64,000 nucleotides of DNA. It comes from Thermomicrobiales bacterium (lineage in GTDB: Bacteria; Chloroflexota; Chloroflexia; Thermomicrobiales; UBA6265). Below are positions 25,209 to 41,096 of the stretch, one piece after another (the first letter of the stretch is position 1; each line of letters begins with the position of its first letter). A program made the position numbers and the translations under genes. The DNA lies in the NCBI GenBank assembly GCA_019637585.1, contig JAHBVL010000006.1, forward strand, positions 1 to 64,000, written 5' to 3'. Below the pieces are notes generated by a model. The model worked only from the letters and a program-made list of their open reading frames with translations, was not told the origin of the DNA and did not search any database.

Positions 25209-25306
25209 CGCCGACATCGATTCGGAACAGATGCTCCATTCGCCACTATCTTCGCTATGATGGTGACCGGTATGGAGTTTCATTGCTGTCAGTGAACGGA
25301 GAAGCC

Positions 25307-26683
25307 ATGTCTCGATCGATGCAGGACCGCACACGGATGCGTTTCATCTCGCTGCTCGCGGTGGTGATGCTCGTTGCCACGGCCGCGCTTTCACAGGCCG
25401 CCGTCGCCCAGGGTGGGGAAACGATCCGCTTCGCTTTCTGGGGGGATCCGGCGGAGTTCGACGCCTATCAGGCGGTCGCCGATGGATTCGAAGCGGCCAA
25501 TCCTGGCTACGACGTCGAGATCGACTACACATCCGGGCAGGGAGACTACTACCGGAAACTGGCCACCGACTTCGCCGCTGGCGACCCGCCGGATGTCTTT
25601 CTGACGAACTACCGGAACTTTGGGCAGTACGCCGCGTCTGGAGCGCTCGACCCGATCGAGCCTCATTTGAACGCCTCATCGGTGTTCACCATGGAGGACT
25701 TCTATCAAGAACCGATGGACGCCTTCCGCTACCGGGGTGGTCCGGTGGTCTGCATGCCGCAAAACATCTCGAGTCTGGTGGTCTACTACAACGTCGATAT
25801 GTTCGAGGCGAATGGCGTGCCGCTGCCCGCCGATGGCTGGACCTGGGACACCTTCATCGATGCCGCCGAAGCGCTGACGCAGGATACCGATGGTGATGGC
25901 GTCGTCGATCAGTTCGGCGTGGTTGTCGAACCAAGCATGTACCGGATGGTCTCCTTCATCTGGGGAGCCGGTGGAGAGATCGTCGACGATCTCAACAATC
26001 CGACCCGCCTGACCATCGATACGCCCGAAGCGCGAGCCGGGATCGAGGCATTCATCAGCCTGGGCGTCATGGGATCAAATGTCGTGCCACCGGCAGAAGA
26101 GGTTGCCGCCGAGGGTGATCAGGATCGCTTCATGCGGGGTGGGGCGGCGATGTTCCTGCAGAGCCGGCGTCCCGTGCCGACCCTTCGCGAGATCGAAGGG
26201 TTCACCTGGGATGTCGCGGCATTGCCTGTGATCAACCAGGCGTCGACTGTGCTGCACAGTGATGCCTTTTGCATGGCGGCTGGCGCCAACGAGACTGGAT
26301 CGGCCTGGAAATTCATCGAGTATGCCGCCAGCGAACAAGGACAGCTCATTCTGGCTGCAACCGGCCGCACCGTTCCCTCGATGATCTCAGTTGCTGAATC
26401 CGATGCGTTCCTGCTGGGTATCGCGCCCGACTCGGGCACGCTGACAGGTTCGCCCGTCGCCGCCGAACCCTTGCCGCCGGCCAGCAGCCAGGTTTACCTG
26501 GAGAACATCCAGGTGATGCACCGGTTGCCGTCGATTTCGACCTGGCCCGAGGTGGAGGACGCGTTCAACGCCGAATTCGACCAGGGCTTCTATGAATCGG
26601 TCGATATCGACGCGGCGATAGCCGCCGCAATCGAGAACGCCCAGGCAGCCCTCGACCGTTCAGCGGAAGAAGACGGCGTCTAG
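25307..26683 (+). CDS. Extracellular solute-binding protein, family 1 (sugar ABC)
   Basis: 458 residues. The signal sequence is of Sec type (MRFISLLAVVMLVATAALSQAAVAQ), unlike the Tat signal of its divergent paralogue. The mature part begins ETIRFAFWGDPAEFDAYQ and has PPDVFLTNYRNFGQYAASG, matching its paralogue. The start at 25307 has GGAG five bases upstream. Its stop overlaps the stop of the convergent permease gene by four bases. It is a likely binding protein for the permeases at 26680-28513. Confidence 0.9.
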   Translation: MSRSMQDRTRMRFISLLAVVMLVATAALSQAAVAQGGETIRFAFWGDPAEFDAYQAVADGFEAANPGYDVEIDYTSGQGDYYRKLATDFAAGDPPDVFLTNYRNFGQYAASGALDPIEPHLNASSVFTMEDFYQEPMDAFRYRGGPVVCMPQNISSLVVYYNVDMFEANGVPLPADGWTWDTFIDAAEALTQDTDGDGVVDQFGVVVEPSMYRMVSFIWGAGGEIVDDLNNPTRLTIDTPEARAGIEAFISLGVMGSNVVPPAEEVAAEGDQDRFMRGGAAMFLQSRRPVPTLREIEGFTWDVAALPVINQASTVLHSDAFCMAAGANETGSAWKFIEYAASEQGQLILAATGRTVPSMISVAESDAFLLGIAPDSGTLTGSPVAAEPLPPASSQVYLENIQVMHRLPSISTWPEVEDAFNAEFDQGFYESVDIDAAIAAAIENAQAALDRSAEEDGV

Positions 26684-27588
26684 GAAGACCCCAACACCCC
26701 CTGACCACGGCGGTCCTGGAGAAAGACCCGCTGCATCGTCAGGAAGAGGAGCATGATCGGGGCGATCATCAGGATCGCCCCGGCCATGATCAACGGCCAG
26801 TTGGTCGAATCGAGCTGGTAGAGCATCCGCAATCCCTGTGACGCCACATATTTCTCATGGGTCCGGATGTAGAGCAGTGGCTCGATGAACTGATTCCAGT
26901 AGTGGACCGACGACAGAACCGCGGTGGCCACAATCGCCGGCCGGGCCAGCGGCATGCCGATCTCCTTCCAGAGACGAAACGCGCCCGCGCCATCGAGTCT
27001 GGCGGCGTCGAAATGATCGCGCGGGATGCGCGAAAACGCCCAGACGAACAACAGCACATAGAGGGGCGATGTGCCCATCAGCGACGGCACGATCAGCACC
27101 GCGCGCCGGTCGATCAAACCGGCTTCCTTGTAGACGATGAACCGGGGGAGCCAGATCGCGGTGACCGGCACCATCAGCGTACACACCGACAGAACCACCA
27201 GCCTGGTCCGCCAGATTCGCGGCAGCTGCGAGATGGCGAATCCCGCGAACGATGCGAAGAGAATCGTGAGCGGCGCGGCAAGGGCGACGACGAAGAGCGA
27301 ATTGAGGGCATAGCGTTCGGCGTCGATGGTGTCGAAGACCGCCGGGTAGTTTTCCCACGCCAGCGGAGAAGGAATCCACTCGGGATTCCGCGCCCAGGGC
27401 TGACCGGTGGAGCGGAGGGAGGCGGAAAACGCCCAGAGGATCGGCAGAACAAAGAGGCAGGCAGCAACGGCGCCAGTCAGCCAGACGGCCAATCGACGGA
27501 TTCTCGGCCCGGTCGGCCGGGGCCTCCTCCCCTCTCCCGCGGTCGGGAGAGGGGTCGGGGGTGAGGGATATCCCCCCCGTTCCGTCAT
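26680..27588 (-). CDS. Sugar ABC transporter permease, MalG type
   Basis: 302 residues. Six membrane segments are visible from LTGAVAACLFVLPILWAFSA to IMAGAILMIAPIMLLFL. The EAA loop reads DAARLDGAGAFRLWKEIG then MPLARP, the contact site for the ATPase. No ATPase is encoded nearby, as is common when a shared MsmK-type ATPase is used. The first 20 residues (YPSPPTPLPTAGEG) are encoded by an interspersed repeat; a TTG start further in would avoid this. It follows the other permease by 13 bases. Confidence 0.9.
   Translation of the reverse strand: MTERGGYPSPPTPLPTAGEGRRPRPTGPRIRRLAVWLTGAVAACLFVLPILWAFSASLRSTGQPWARNPEWIPSPLAWENYPAVFDTIDAERYALNSLFVVALAAPLTILFASFAGFAISQLPRIWRTRLVVLSVCTLMVPVTAIWLPRFIVYKEAGLIDRRAVLIVPSLMGTSPLYVLLFVWAFSRIPRDHFDAARLDGAGAFRLWKEIGMPLARPAIVATAVLSSVHYWNQFIEPLLYIRTHEKYVASQGLRMLYQLDSTNWPLIMAGAILMIAPIMLLFLTMQRVFLQDRRGQGVLGSS
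27527..27568. repeat. Interspersed GGGAGAGGGG palindrome inside a gene start
   Basis: CCCCTCTCCC and GGGAGAGGGG form a stem around a short loop, followed by a GGGGGTGAGGG tail. The same element is at 45043-45082. Here it is read as part of the permease N-terminus; in both cases it lies at a gene junction within an ABC operon. Confidence 0.8.
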
Positions 27589-27601
27589 CTCCAGCGAAAT
27601 C

Positions 27602-28513
27602 CTAGTCGCCACCCTGAAACCCCACATTCCAGCGTTTCGCGGCACGGAACTGCGCCCACAGGATGGCTCCGGTGACCACATACATGGAGAGCGTCATCGC
27701 CGCCGCGTACCCAAAGCGGAGATAGCCGAATGCGGTCGTGTAGATGTACATCGGCAGGTAGAGCGTCGCGTATTTGGGATCGCCGCCATTGCCGACGATG
27801 AGCGCTGGAACGAAATTGGCCTGGAAGCTGAACACGGTGTCGCGAAGCAGAACGATCAACAGCGCTGGCGCAATCGTGGGCAAGGTGATGTTCCAGATCG
27901 TACGCAGCATCGAGCCGCCATCGATCGCCGATTGGTCGAGCAGATCGCGGCTGACATTCTGCAAAGCGGCGAGGGAAATGACGAAGCCTTCGCCGATTTG
28001 CCAGATCATCATGAGCACGATGCCGTAAGGAGCCCAGGTCGCGTCGACCATCCAGGAGGGACCATCGATGCCGATCAGGGCCAGGGCGCGGTTGAGTGGT
28101 CCATAGATCGGGTTGAGGATCCAGAGCCAGATCAGCGCCCAGGCCATGTCGGGTATGACCGTCGGCAGATAGACCATCACCCGGAAGAGCGTGGTGCCGG
28201 GGCGGGGTTTGAGCAGCAGAAGGGCCATGACGAATGCGCCGAACAAGCGCAAGGGCACGGCCAGCAGGATGTACCGCAACGAGTTTCCCAGCGCGATGCG
28301 GAAGACATCGTCGTTGAGCATCTCGCGGAAGTTGGCCAGACCGGCGAATCGGGGCGGATTGATCGCGTTGTAGTGGGTGAACGCGATGGCGAACCCAGCA
28401 ATCGCTGGTCCGAGCGTCAGGATCGAAATGCCGATCAGGTAGGGCGCGAGCATCAGACCCAGTTGGGCCCGATCGCTCAGATGCGGTCGTCGAGATGCCA
28501 TGGATTGGATCAT
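27602..28513 (-). CDS. Sugar ABC transporter permease, MalF/UgpA type
   Basis: 303 residues with six membrane segments, starting LGLMLAPYLIGISILTLGPA. The EAA loop reads LLDQSAIDGGSMLRTIWNI then TLPTIAP. The start at 28513 is followed four codons later by another ATG (28501), which is also possible. It is the first gene of the two-permease unit. Upstream lie GTAG-type REPs and the RAYT gene on the same strand, so the promoter is not clear. Confidence 0.92.
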   Translation of the reverse strand: MIQSMASRRPHLSDRAQLGLMLAPYLIGISILTLGPAIAGFAIAFTHYNAINPPRFAGLANFREMLNDDVFRIALGNSLRYILLAVPLRLFGAFVMALLLLKPRPGTTLFRVMVYLPTVIPDMAWALIWLWILNPIYGPLNRALALIGIDGPSWMVDATWAPYGIVLMMIWQIGEGFVISLAALQNVSRDLLDQSAIDGGSMLRTIWNITLPTIAPALLIVLLRDTVFSFQANFVPALIVGNGGDPKYATLYLPMYIYTTAFGYLRFGYAAAMTLSMYVVTGAILWAQFRAAKRWNVGFQGGD

Positions 28514-28550: not shown

Positions 28551-28635
28551 GGCGGGCCACAGGTGCCCGAACTACGACTTGGGAAGGTGAGTGTGCAAAT
28601 GGGGAGGCCGTCGGACCACGGGTGCCCGAACTAAG
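28551..28635 (-). repeat. Two diverged units of the 60-bp REP array
   Basis: REP copies at 28551-28575 and 28610-28635 read GTAG on the minus strand (GCCCGAACTAC on the plus strand). They are 59 bases apart, joined by a linker resembling those of the array at 29368-29634. The second copy has lost the GTAG head (CTAAG). Confidence 0.75.
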
Positions 28636-28666
28636 GGCGGCCGATAGCGGGCCATGACGGACAGAC

Positions 28667-28691
28667 GTAGTTCGGGCACCTGTGGCCCGAC
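28667..28691 (+). repeat. GTAG REP immediately 3' of the RAYT gene
   Basis: GTAG, a T, then the arm TCGGGC, loop ACCTGTG and arm GCCCGA. It lies four bases beyond the RAYT stop, in the same orientation as the copy at 29304-29328. Confidence 0.85.
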
Positions 28692-28695
28692 GTCT

Positions 28696-29175
28696 CTACT
28701 CGACCGCGACCAGAGTCCCACCCATGTACGGGTAGTCCTCCCATGTCGCAGCCAAGCCGGCGCGGACGGGATTGTTCAGGATGTACGTGAAGATGCCTTC
28801 GATGTCTTCTGATTCGCGGATCCCGTGGTCGTGGAAACTGGGCTGCCAGAGTCTGCCTGTGCCGCCTGCCTCCCACCACATCCGTGTGGTCAACGATTTC
28901 ATTTTGCCAATGACGCTGATCGCATTTCCGTCTTCGACTTGATAGACGATATGCAGGTGGTCCGGCATGAGACAGTACACGAGGATTCGGGTGCCGTCTG
29001 CGCTCGATTGCGCTTCCAGCCAGTCGCAGATCCTCGACGCGAGCTCCGCATTCGCGAATGGGCGCGAGGATCGGTCGGCCGCACCAATCGTGATATGCCA
29101 GACGGTCCCGTGGTCCTCATATGCATCGGAGGGTAGGCGATGCGGTTGACGAGTGCGGAAGCGTCGTTGGGCCAT
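28696..29175 (-). CDS. REP-associated tyrosine transposase (RAYT, Y1_Tnp/HUH family)
   Basis: 159 residues. The metal-binding HUH motif is H73-x-H75 in YCLMPDHLHIVY, and the nucleophile is Y131 in TYILNNPVRAGL, which matches the catalytic tyrosine of the E. coli RAYT (Y-I-x-x-N-P). The motif LWQPSFHDHGIR precedes it. It should act as a single-strand DNA endonuclease on REP hairpins. It lacks the partner gene tnpB and has no IS200/IS605 ends. The start at 29175 has AGGG about 11 bases upstream; the open frame extends upstream only into REP sequence. Confidence 0.88.
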   Translation of the reverse strand: MAQRRFRTRQPHRLPSDAYEDHGTVWHITIGAADRSSRPFANAELASRICDWLEAQSSADGTRILVYCLMPDHLHIVYQVEDGNAISVIGKMKSLTTRMWWEAGGTGRLWQPSFHDHGIRESEDIEGIFTYILNNPVRAGLAATWEDYPYMGGTLVAVE

Positions 29176-29303
29176 AGGTTGGATTCCCTGGTCAGCGGGT
29201 GTGTTTCGACGTACGAGTATGCCGCAGTTCGAGCAGATGCGCCGGTCCTCGGCGTGGCCAACCGACCAAGTCCCCGTAGATCGAGCGAACCGACCAAGCC
29301 ACG

Positions 29304-29328
29304 GTAGTTCGGGCACCTGTGGCCCGAC
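29304..29328 (+). repeat. GTAG REP upstream of the RAYT gene
   Basis: Identical to the copy at 28667-28691: GTAG, T, TCGGGC, ACCTGTG, GCCCGA. It lies about 130 bases before the RAYT start, in direct orientation relative to that copy. Confidence 0.85.
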
Positions 29329-29367
29329 GTTGACTGCACACTGCCAACTCGTTGGTGGTGGAGAGGC

Positions 29368-29634
29368 GTCGGGCCACAGGTGCCCGAACTACGACTGCGA
29401 CGGGTGGGTGTGCGAGGGGGCGGGAGATGTCGGATCGCAGGTGCCCGAACTACGACTGCAACGGGCGGGTGTGCGAGCGACGGGAAACGTCGGGCCACAG
29501 GTGCCCGAACTACGTCTGCGACGAGCGGGTGTGCGAGGGGTGGAGAGGCGTCGGGCCACAGGTGCCAGAACTACGTCTGCGACGAGCGGGTGTGCGAGGG
29601 GTGGGAGGCGTCGGGCCACAGGTGCCCAAGCTAC
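29368..29634 (-). repeat. Array of five 60-61-bp REP units
   Basis: REP copies start at 29368, 29429, 29489, 29550 and 29610, all with GTAG on the minus strand. Two are diverged (29429, GATCGC in the arm; 29550, one arm mismatch), and the last has a changed base pair before CTAC. Linkers of 35-36 bases are conserved, with a GCGGGTGTGCGAG core. A decayed tail continues to about 29680. It fills most of the 506-base gap between the RAYT start and the next gene. Confidence 0.85.
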
Positions 29635-29681: not shown

Positions 29682-31502
29682 TCACGTTGTCGCGATCAAC
29701 CCCGACTGGTGGAAGATCCGGCGCAGGATGGCCAGGGTTGAGGCGTAGGTGGAATCCATACCGTAGTACGACATTCCTCGCGCGCCCAGGGTGTGCGAAC
29801 GGGTGTAGGGGGTGTCCGACGCGTAGTGGATGATTCCCAGGTCGAGATGATGGGAGGAGTGCTGGACGAGGTTGATCGCTTCGTCGACTGGATAGCGGTC
29901 GAGGAACAAATCCTCGTAGATGGCGTTCAGGTAGGGTCCCGCTTCCATCTCGACCACGGTGTAGTTCTCCCGATAGTAGAAATCGAGATATCCCTGGTTC
30001 TGGAGATAGGTGCCTTTGACGGTGACCGCTTTCTGGTTGTCCAGCGCTGCTCCATAGACGAGGTAGGGAGCCAGATCGCCGTAGGAGAAACAGTTGTCGA
30101 GCCAGTAGGTGTTGCCGGAGTGCTCGTCGTAGACGACGTTGGCGATCATCACGTCGCCGATGCGGCCATTGAGGGTCGCTGCTTTCCCGAGCACATAGAT
30201 GCCGCGCAGGAGATCGGTGGACATCGCCACCTGGTTCATGATGTGGTAGGCGGCCATGCCCAATGGATAGTTGATATTGATGATGATGGCATCGGTGGCG
30301 CCGGGATTGAGGCGTTCGCCGGGATTGAGCAACCGCGGATCGAGACTCTCCGGATCGAGGCGGGCGAGATCGATGACCTGAACGCCGACATCCATGGCGC
30401 CGAGCGCGCTGATATGGGCAATCCCCCGCTCGATCTCCTCGGCATTGCGCCGGTCACGATCCCGTTCGTTGCCTGGTTCGTTGAAGTAGGTGCGAGCGGC
30501 GAAGTAGAGGAGATTTTCCCACGACGACCGGCTCTCACCCCGATCGAGCGCGTCGAGCTCCGACAGCAGCTCGGCGTGCGCGGTCTCCCGGATGTACTGG
30601 GTCAGCGCTTCTTTGCGGCGCATGGCGGTGCCGGCCAGGATGTTCACCAGACTGTGGGTGTTCGACGAAACGAAGTAGACAGGGCGCTCGTCGAGATCGG
30701 CCTCGCGCAGAAGGTCCTGCACGGGCCGCCACCAATGGCGGGTCGAACGGGTGTACCCGACAAAACTGCCGCTCAGCATGCGCAGCCAGAACCGTTTTCG
30801 CTCCGGCGCCAGCGCCAGGAGCCGTGGCCAGAGTCTGGCTCCCCAGATCGCCTGAAGCCTGAGCCAGTCGGTAGGGCCGATCAGCAGCTCGTCGCCGATC
30901 GAGGCAACCGCCTCCGGACCGGGGATGCCACCGGCGTTCAACTCCTCATGAATCTGGCGAATGCGCTTGATGAGGGGACGGTTGCCCCGCAGGAGCCGGT
31001 GGATCTTGGTCAGCTCGATCTGCAGAGCGACGATCGACGGGATGAGATCGTCGAGATCGGACGTCGATGAGATTTGCGCGGCGAGAATCGATTCGCCATC
31101 CCAGAACCATTTGCGGCGGCGCCCGGGCGACCCGACGACCGTCCACTCGGCGATGTTGCTGAATCCATCGTGCTGAAATGCCTCGATCGTCTGGCCGAGC
31201 ACGATGTCGCGGGCTTCCATGATGCAGTCGGGCAAGCGCTGGATCGAGTAGATCATCGCGTTCATATCGGGTTCGGGTTCCATCGCTCCGGCGTGGAGCG
31301 AAGGCGCGGCCGTCAGATGGGCTGGCTCCAGGCTGGAGATGCCGACCGCTCCCGAGCTCTGCAGGAGGGTGGTGTAGGTCCGGACGTAGAGATCGACTTC
31401 GCGTTTGCCAGCGGTCGTCTCCACCCGATGTGAAGGAACGGAAGAGTGGTGTCTGCTCTCCCGTTCTGCGTCAGTCTTTTCGAATTCGCGTTGCGCCGCC
31501 AT
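29682..31502 (-). CDS. Uncharacterised 606-residue protein
   Basis: 606 residues, not recognised with confidence. No signal peptide or membrane segment is seen. The N-terminal half is helical and charged (KREVDLYVRTYTTLL, ELTKIHRLLRGNRPLIKRIRQ). The C-terminal half has well-ordered features: IYVLGKAATLNGRIGDVMIANVV, then a tract YTVVEMEAGPYLNAI. Both recall nucleoside phosphorylases (GD-turn and the MEA substrate motif), so a phosphorylase-like C-terminal fold is possible. Residue composition matches its neighbours. AGGAT precedes the start by five bases. The gene stands alone, with a REP array at its 3' end. Confidence 0.7.
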   Translation of the reverse strand: MAAQREFEKTDAERESRHHSSVPSHRVETTAGKREVDLYVRTYTTLLQSSGAVGISSLEPAHLTAAPSLHAGAMEPEPDMNAMIYSIQRLPDCIMEARDIVLGQTIEAFQHDGFSNIAEWTVVGSPGRRRKWFWDGESILAAQISSTSDLDDLIPSIVALQIELTKIHRLLRGNRPLIKRIRQIHEELNAGGIPGPEAVASIGDELLIGPTDWLRLQAIWGARLWPRLLALAPERKRFWLRMLSGSFVGYTRSTRHWWRPVQDLLREADLDERPVYFVSSNTHSLVNILAGTAMRRKEALTQYIRETAHAELLSELDALDRGESRSSWENLLYFAARTYFNEPGNERDRDRRNAEEIERGIAHISALGAMDVGVQVIDLARLDPESLDPRLLNPGERLNPGATDAIIININYPLGMAAYHIMNQVAMSTDLLRGIYVLGKAATLNGRIGDVMIANVVYDEHSGNTYWLDNCFSYGDLAPYLVYGAALDNQKAVTVKGTYLQNQGYLDFYYRENYTVVEMEAGPYLNAIYEDLFLDRYPVDEAINLVQHSSHHLDLGIIHYASDTPYTRSHTLGARGMSYYGMDSTYASTLAILRRIFHQSGLIATT

Positions 31503-40934: not shown

Positions 40935-40954
40935 TGAGTCGAGAGTAGCATATG

Positions 40955-41096
40955 GGGCAAAGGGCAAAGGGCAAAGGGCAAAGGGCAAAGGGTGATCGTA
41001 GTTCGGGCACCTGTGGCCCGGCGAAGAGGCGAAGAGGCGAAGAGGCGGAGAGGGAGAGGAGCGTCGCAGTCGTCCTTCGGGCACCTGTGGCCCGGC
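40955..41096. repeat. Microsatellites and two REPs of the RAYT-linked family
   Basis: Five copies of GGGCAAA (40955-40989) are followed by a plus-oriented REP with GTAG head (40998-41022), then an octamer run of GCGAAGAG (41021-41052), then a second REP (41072-41096) whose GTAG has become GTCC. Both have the arms TCGGGC and GCCCG of the 28.5-29.6 kb family. The block fills the gap between two convergent genes. Confidence 0.8.

Follow-up and report, generated by a model that had tools for sequence, protein, structure and literature searches.

Where a gene for a small tyrosine transposase lies among repeated copies of one palindrome, it must be asked whether enzyme and repeats form one system, and the locus bears on two unsolved problems of REP biology, namely how each RAYT distinguishes its own REP and what determines the site to which a REP moves. 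We analysed the window, a 64,000-nucleotide stretch of DNA from a Thermomicrobiales bacterium in which a preliminary description had recognised a RAYT with its own REPs, together with the 3.94-Mb genome to which it belongs. The gene (RAYT1) and the copies of the palindrome (REP1) around it are arranged as follows.

28552..28575, minus strand: REP1 copy, 1 mismatch
28611..28634, minus strand: REP1 copy, 3 mismatches
28667..28690, plus strand: REP1 copy, exact; head-to-head partner of the 28611 copy
28696-28698: RAYT1 stop codon
28699..29175, minus strand: RAYT1, REP-associated tyrosine transposase, 159 aa (NCBIfam, Pfam, AlphaFold2 model, invariant residues)
29304..29327, plus strand: REP1 copy, exact, upstream of RAYT1
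29369..29392, minus strand: REP1 copy, exact; opens the tandem array of 60/61-bp period
29430..29453, minus strand: REP1 copy, 3 mismatches
29490..29513, minus strand: REP1 copy, exact
29551..29574, minus strand: REP1 copy, 1 mismatch
29611..29634, minus strand: REP1 copy, 2 mismatches

REP1 consists of GTAG, a spacer T and a 6-bp TCGGGC/GCCCGA stem around a 7-nt loop, ACCTGTG. This is the hairpin originally proposed, and it is also the minimum-energy DNA fold of the REP1 top strand (-6.3 kcal/mol, z -2.8). Nine copies of GTAGTTCGGGCACCTGTGGCCCGA with at most 3 mismatches surround RAYT1 within 28552-29634, as against 0.02 expected in these 1.1 kb. Four of them are exact, two have 1 mismatch, one has 2 and two have 3; shuffled windows gave no match at the same threshold. 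The earlier count of at least nine around the gene thus holds, and two more copies lie further off in the window, at 40998 and 41072. Five of the copies upstream of RAYT1 (29369-29634) stand head-to-tail with a period of 60/61 bp. The neighbouring gene at 29682-31502 encodes a strong match to a DUF6909 protein of unknown function (692 bits), and on the other side of the locus are ABC-transporter permeases (26680-28513) and a solute-binding protein (25283-26683).

The identification of RAYT1 as a genuine RAYT is supported by a curated HMM, its fold, its guide-binding residues and the flanking REPs, all of which agree with the preliminary description. The protein matches NCBIfam NF047646 (REP-associated tyrosine transposase) with 93.6 bits against a curated cut-off of 80, and its Pfam domain is Y1_Tnp. 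A phmmer search of the PDB finds 4er8, the E. coli RAYT (E 2e-8), which is also the best fold match of the AlphaFold2 model (pLDDT 89.6, pTM 0.83), followed by the ISDra2, IS200 and IS608 transposases. The key residues are H73-x-H75, W110-Q111, D116-H117, R120 and Y131, while M70-P71-D72-H73, H75, Y131, N135, P136 and R138 are invariant across a 32-sequence alignment of relatives. In the alignment with 4er8, WQPSFHDHGIR of RAYT1 pairs with WQPRFWEHAIR, such that W110, Q111, D116, H117 and R120 are the counterparts of W94, Q95, E/D100, H101 and R104, the segment that reads GTAG in the E. coli RAYT (PMC6006769). The gene had been described as a single 159-residue Y1/HUH transposase with H73-x-H75 and Y131; this is correct for the protein and for the locus but not genome-wide, as the genome has four RAYT-like and three IS200-type Y1 genes.

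REP1 is found throughout the genome, where 82 copies occur at up to 3 mismatches, 29 of them exact and the two strands carrying 40 and 42; the reversed pattern, used as a whole-genome control, has no match. A search of 60 further genomes from the order, allowing up to 2 mismatches, found REP1 in none, although a RAYT relative is present in 10 of them. The host assembly is a 33-contig draft and the one genome by which its genus is represented. Two of the three observations that had been named in advance as speaking against a RAYT-REP system, absence of the palindrome elsewhere in this genome and its presence in genomes without this RAYT, were therefore not made. With genes called by a simple codon-based finder, 66 of the 73 copies away from RAYT1 lie outside genes. 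The GTAG side is turned toward a neighbouring gene's 3' end in 45 cases and toward its 5' end in 14 (P 7e-5), and divergent gene pairs have no more than 4 copies between them. The conserved unit extends from GTAG to a CG at +26 and is preceded by a weak RANY. A REPIN (inverted doublet) was considered as the main form of REP1 and rejected on orientation counts, with 50 copies single and the clusters mostly head-to-tail.

These observations make it very probable that we are dealing with a REPtron, in which a chromosomal RAYT (TnpAREP) gene has its own REPs around it. RAYTs characteristically use the tyrosine to cut REP single strands, at a CT/CA close to the hairpin. By analogy, RAYT1 would bind the GTAG-headed hairpin of the REP1 top strand when single-stranded, for example at a replication fork, with the W-Q-x4-D-H-x2-R segment reading the GTAG guide and the enzyme also reading the loop ACCTGTG. 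Y131 would then cut at a short nearby site to give a 5'-phosphotyrosine intermediate, and the REP would be rejoined elsewhere, perhaps with a strand-specific preference for sites immediately 3' to arrays of G-rich heptamers or octamers (see below). On this scheme only the REPs would move, leaving RAYT1 as a single-copy gene. The palindromes might instead be the ends of an ordinary IS200/IS605 element, since RAYT1 shares the Y1_Tnp family and fold of such transposases and the genome has three IS200-type Y1 genes. Yet RAYT1 is single copy, 73 palindromes lie away from the gene, GTAG is placed at the foot of the hairpin, and the NCBIfam IS200 model NF033573 does not match the protein; we rejected this explanation as highly improbable.

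If the locus is a REPtron, the other RAYT-like genes of the same cell bear on how an enzyme finds its own REP. The nearest paralogue of RAYT1 is RAYT2, and the three further genes, each flanked by a different palindrome, are these.

C1:625053-625490: RAYT2, 51% identical to RAYT1; flanked by GTAGAACCCGGCCCTGTGCCGGCG, 25 genome copies
C1:426898-427347: RAYT3, 39% identical to RAYT1; flanked by GTAGCGGCGATCCCTTGTGGTCGCCG (REP3), 47 genome copies
C23, about 330.8-331.3 kb: RAYT4; flanked by GTAGCGGC(AAC/GAG)GCC... (REP4), 150 genome copies

When the four loci were scanned with the four REP patterns, 9, 5, 8 and 13 copies were found on the diagonal (RAYT1 to RAYT4) and none off it. Each of the four families thus has one full-length gene, and the set provides a natural test of specificity outside Proteobacteria. 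RAYT1, RAYT2 and RAYT3 form one clade with two genes of a family-mate (support 100/97); they are sister enzymes whose REPs have different stems and the same loop type. The copies of REP3 are often inverted pairs 119 bp apart. RAYT4 is divergent, falling below the cut-offs of both NCBIfam (65.8 vs 80) and Pfam (22.2 vs 23), and groups with NHxH-type RAYTs in the tree (support 99/99). It resembles subclass 2.4, for which double-foot REPs have been described (PMC6006769) like those at the start of the window, where positions 102-263 hold copies of REP4 (GTAGCGGCAATGCCTGCATTGCC, GTAGCGGCGAGGCCCGCCTCGCC). This is the second family of GTAG-headed palindromes in the window, and some of its copies there have a GT[AG]G foot on either end.

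Among 69 RAYT relatives with usable flanks, 50 have at least 2 copies of a GTRG-headed hairpin of their own within 1.5 kb, a criterion satisfied by 7 of 120 random regions of the host genome. Flanks read backward gave 21 of 69 and are uninformative as a control because palindromes survive reversal, so random regions were used instead. Stems are almost as numerous as loci, with 24 distinct stems in 29 loci of the RAYT1 clade and 22 in 22 loci of the Verrucomicrobiota clade. The loop, in contrast, follows the clade: 25 of the 29 RAYT1-clade loci have the type C(Y)n-GT, and 1 of the 22 in the Verrucomicrobiota clade (Fisher P 2e-9, or 3e-8 when collapsed to distinct stems). These values are to be taken as a guide only, since the loop pattern was chosen with the data in view and the rows include some close relatives. 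In the Verrucomicrobiota clade GNNA-like loops prevail, namely the tetraloops GTGA, GTAA and GCCA, which are also those of most RAYT-flanking GTRG hairpins in L061-L096 (Verrucomicrobiota and relatives). Cleavage of REPs by group 2 and group 3 enzymes has been published, and in the tested members of group 3 (subclass 2.5) the loop bases are essential by SELEX and mutation data (PMC8266576). Loop reading is therefore likely to be the specificity determinant in RAYT1 too.

The least expected result concerns where REP1 is located, which is beside short tandem arrays. Arrays of 7-8-bp units, differing from locus to locus, flank many of the copies. With arrays defined by a period of 5-10, at least 3 units and 85% match, 40 of the 82 REP1 copies have one within 60 bp, compared to 6.1% of random intergenic 24-mers and 7.8% of 24-mers within 150 bp after a stop codon. 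The dispersed copies in the window illustrate the arrangement.

40952..40995, plus strand: heptamer array AAAGGGC x6.3, beside the 40998 copy (GTAG side); its G-rich strand coincides with the REP strand
40998..41021, plus strand: dispersed REP1 copy, 1 mismatch, with a short tandem array on either side
41018..41054, plus strand: octamer array AAGAGGCG x4.6, beside the 40998 copy (tail side)
41072..41095, plus strand: dispersed REP1 copy, 3 mismatches

Under a slightly looser rule, the 73 dispersed copies have arrays on the GTAG side in 43 cases and on the other side in 21. For those on the GTAG side the G-rich strand coincides with the REP strand 41 to 2 (P 2e-10, approximate because copies within one cluster are not independent), whereas on the tail side the two orientations are equal (10 to 10). 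In nine cases the neighbouring gene runs in the opposite direction; compared by hand, eight of these keep the match of G-rich and REP strands, and gene direction therefore does not explain the orientation of the arrays. Xanthomonas and Nostoc are known to carry G-rich heptamer repeats, generally without association with mobile elements (PMC4692102), and our searches of the open-access literature brought up no account that links REPs to such arrays.

Two rival accounts were weighed, one of the arrays and one of RAYT1 and REP1 as a whole. The arrays could be a by-product of REP1, with forks stalling at the hairpin and slipping so that arrays grow on one side; their polarity would fit, as would the fact that they often start within 5 nt of REP1. 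The hairpins of REP3 and REP4 nevertheless lack such company (0 of 41 and 2 of 109 copies with an array within 60 bp). Furthermore, a 464-kb background sample contains about 49 arrays, mostly heptamers (~400 per genome by extrapolation), of which 47 are without a neighbouring REP1; identical units also turn up at loci that are unrelated. As most arrays occur without it, REP1 does not seem to make them; production by REP1 is the less likely direction, and we regard the by-product account as quite unlikely. Alternatively, RAYT1 could be a domesticated host nuclease and REP1 a set of RNA or DNA signals that no longer move, acting at transcript 3' ends, in supercoiling or in fork processing. The placement of REP1 beyond gene 3' ends with GTAG toward the gene, its rarity between divergent genes, and the mostly vertical inheritance reported for RAYTs (PMC6006769) are consistent with such a role. 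Purging of insertions from promoters would, however, give the same positions, and the 29 exact copies among 82 suggest recent spread, such that we consider domestication rather unlikely.

It is instead quite possible, if somewhat short of probable, that REP1 integrates with strand specificity immediately 3' to arrays of G-rich heptamers or octamers and that a clade-wide C(Y)n-GT loop code sets which REPs can be read. The strand-specific integration is a step that we infer from neighbourhood counts. If true, RAYT1 would have as its target a defined structure, single-stranded or G4-prone G-rich arrays, not shared by the other RAYTs of the cell. The strand-specific neighbourhood of REP1 thereby offers a concrete and testable hypothesis on target choice.

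RAYT1 was compared with the closest known systems. The E. coli TnpAREP/RAYT (b0228, PDB 4ER8; group 2 / subclass 2.2) shares the HUH-Y1 fold and the WQ...H..R segment, and its REPtron likewise has GTAG-headed REPs around a single gene, but the enzymes are 24% identical in structural alignment and E. coli REPs have a bulged long stem where REP1 has a perfect one. Group 3 / subclass 2.5 RAYTs (Pseudomonas, Stenotrophomonas, Marinomonas) are like RAYT1 in length (about 150-160 aa), in WQPSFHDH and in hairpins that are short and perfect, the stem following GTAG after 1-2 nt; they differ in having YI[VI]ANP for YILNNP, and the C(Y)n-GT loop type is on the RAYT1 side. In the tree RAYT1 and its clade are separate from the Pseudomonas and Marinomonas RAYTs, which speaks against membership of this class, though the deep forks are weak. 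Set against the published motif description of subclass 2.7 (PMC6006769), which occurs in Cyanobacteria and few other phyla, RAYT1 (DHLH, WQ, YILNNP) has in common WQ, D at the E100 position and YI[LR][NQ]NP, but has DHLH rather than [ND]HVH and 159 aa rather than a mean of about 213.

In Chloroflexota, GTAG REPs were reported in 2013 as the GTAG-23 repeats of Thermomicrobium roseum (PMC3733652). Like REP1 these are GTAG-headed and clustered, but by description they lie inside GC-rich target palindromes, whereas REP1 lies beside G-rich tandem arrays. The preliminary description of a RAYT-REP candidate in this phylum is upheld for host and system; a first-in-Chloroflexota claim was rejected, and the locus adds one more example. 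The placement of the host in Chloroflexota is supported by two genomes of its phylum (G093 and G216), which are collinear with the Chloroflexota genome L063 at 85-89% nucleotide identity. In L063 and three related Chloroflexota genomes (L149, L153 and L154), syntenic RAYT genes are surrounded by one shared REP, GTAGCGCGGGGGCTTGTCCCCCGC; some of the genes have internal stop codons, a case of vertical inheritance with gene decay. Three features go beyond the accessible literature: four RAYT/REP pairs occur together in a single Chloroflexota genome, the loop type is specific to the RAYT clade, and REP1 stands beside G-rich arrays in a strand-specific manner.
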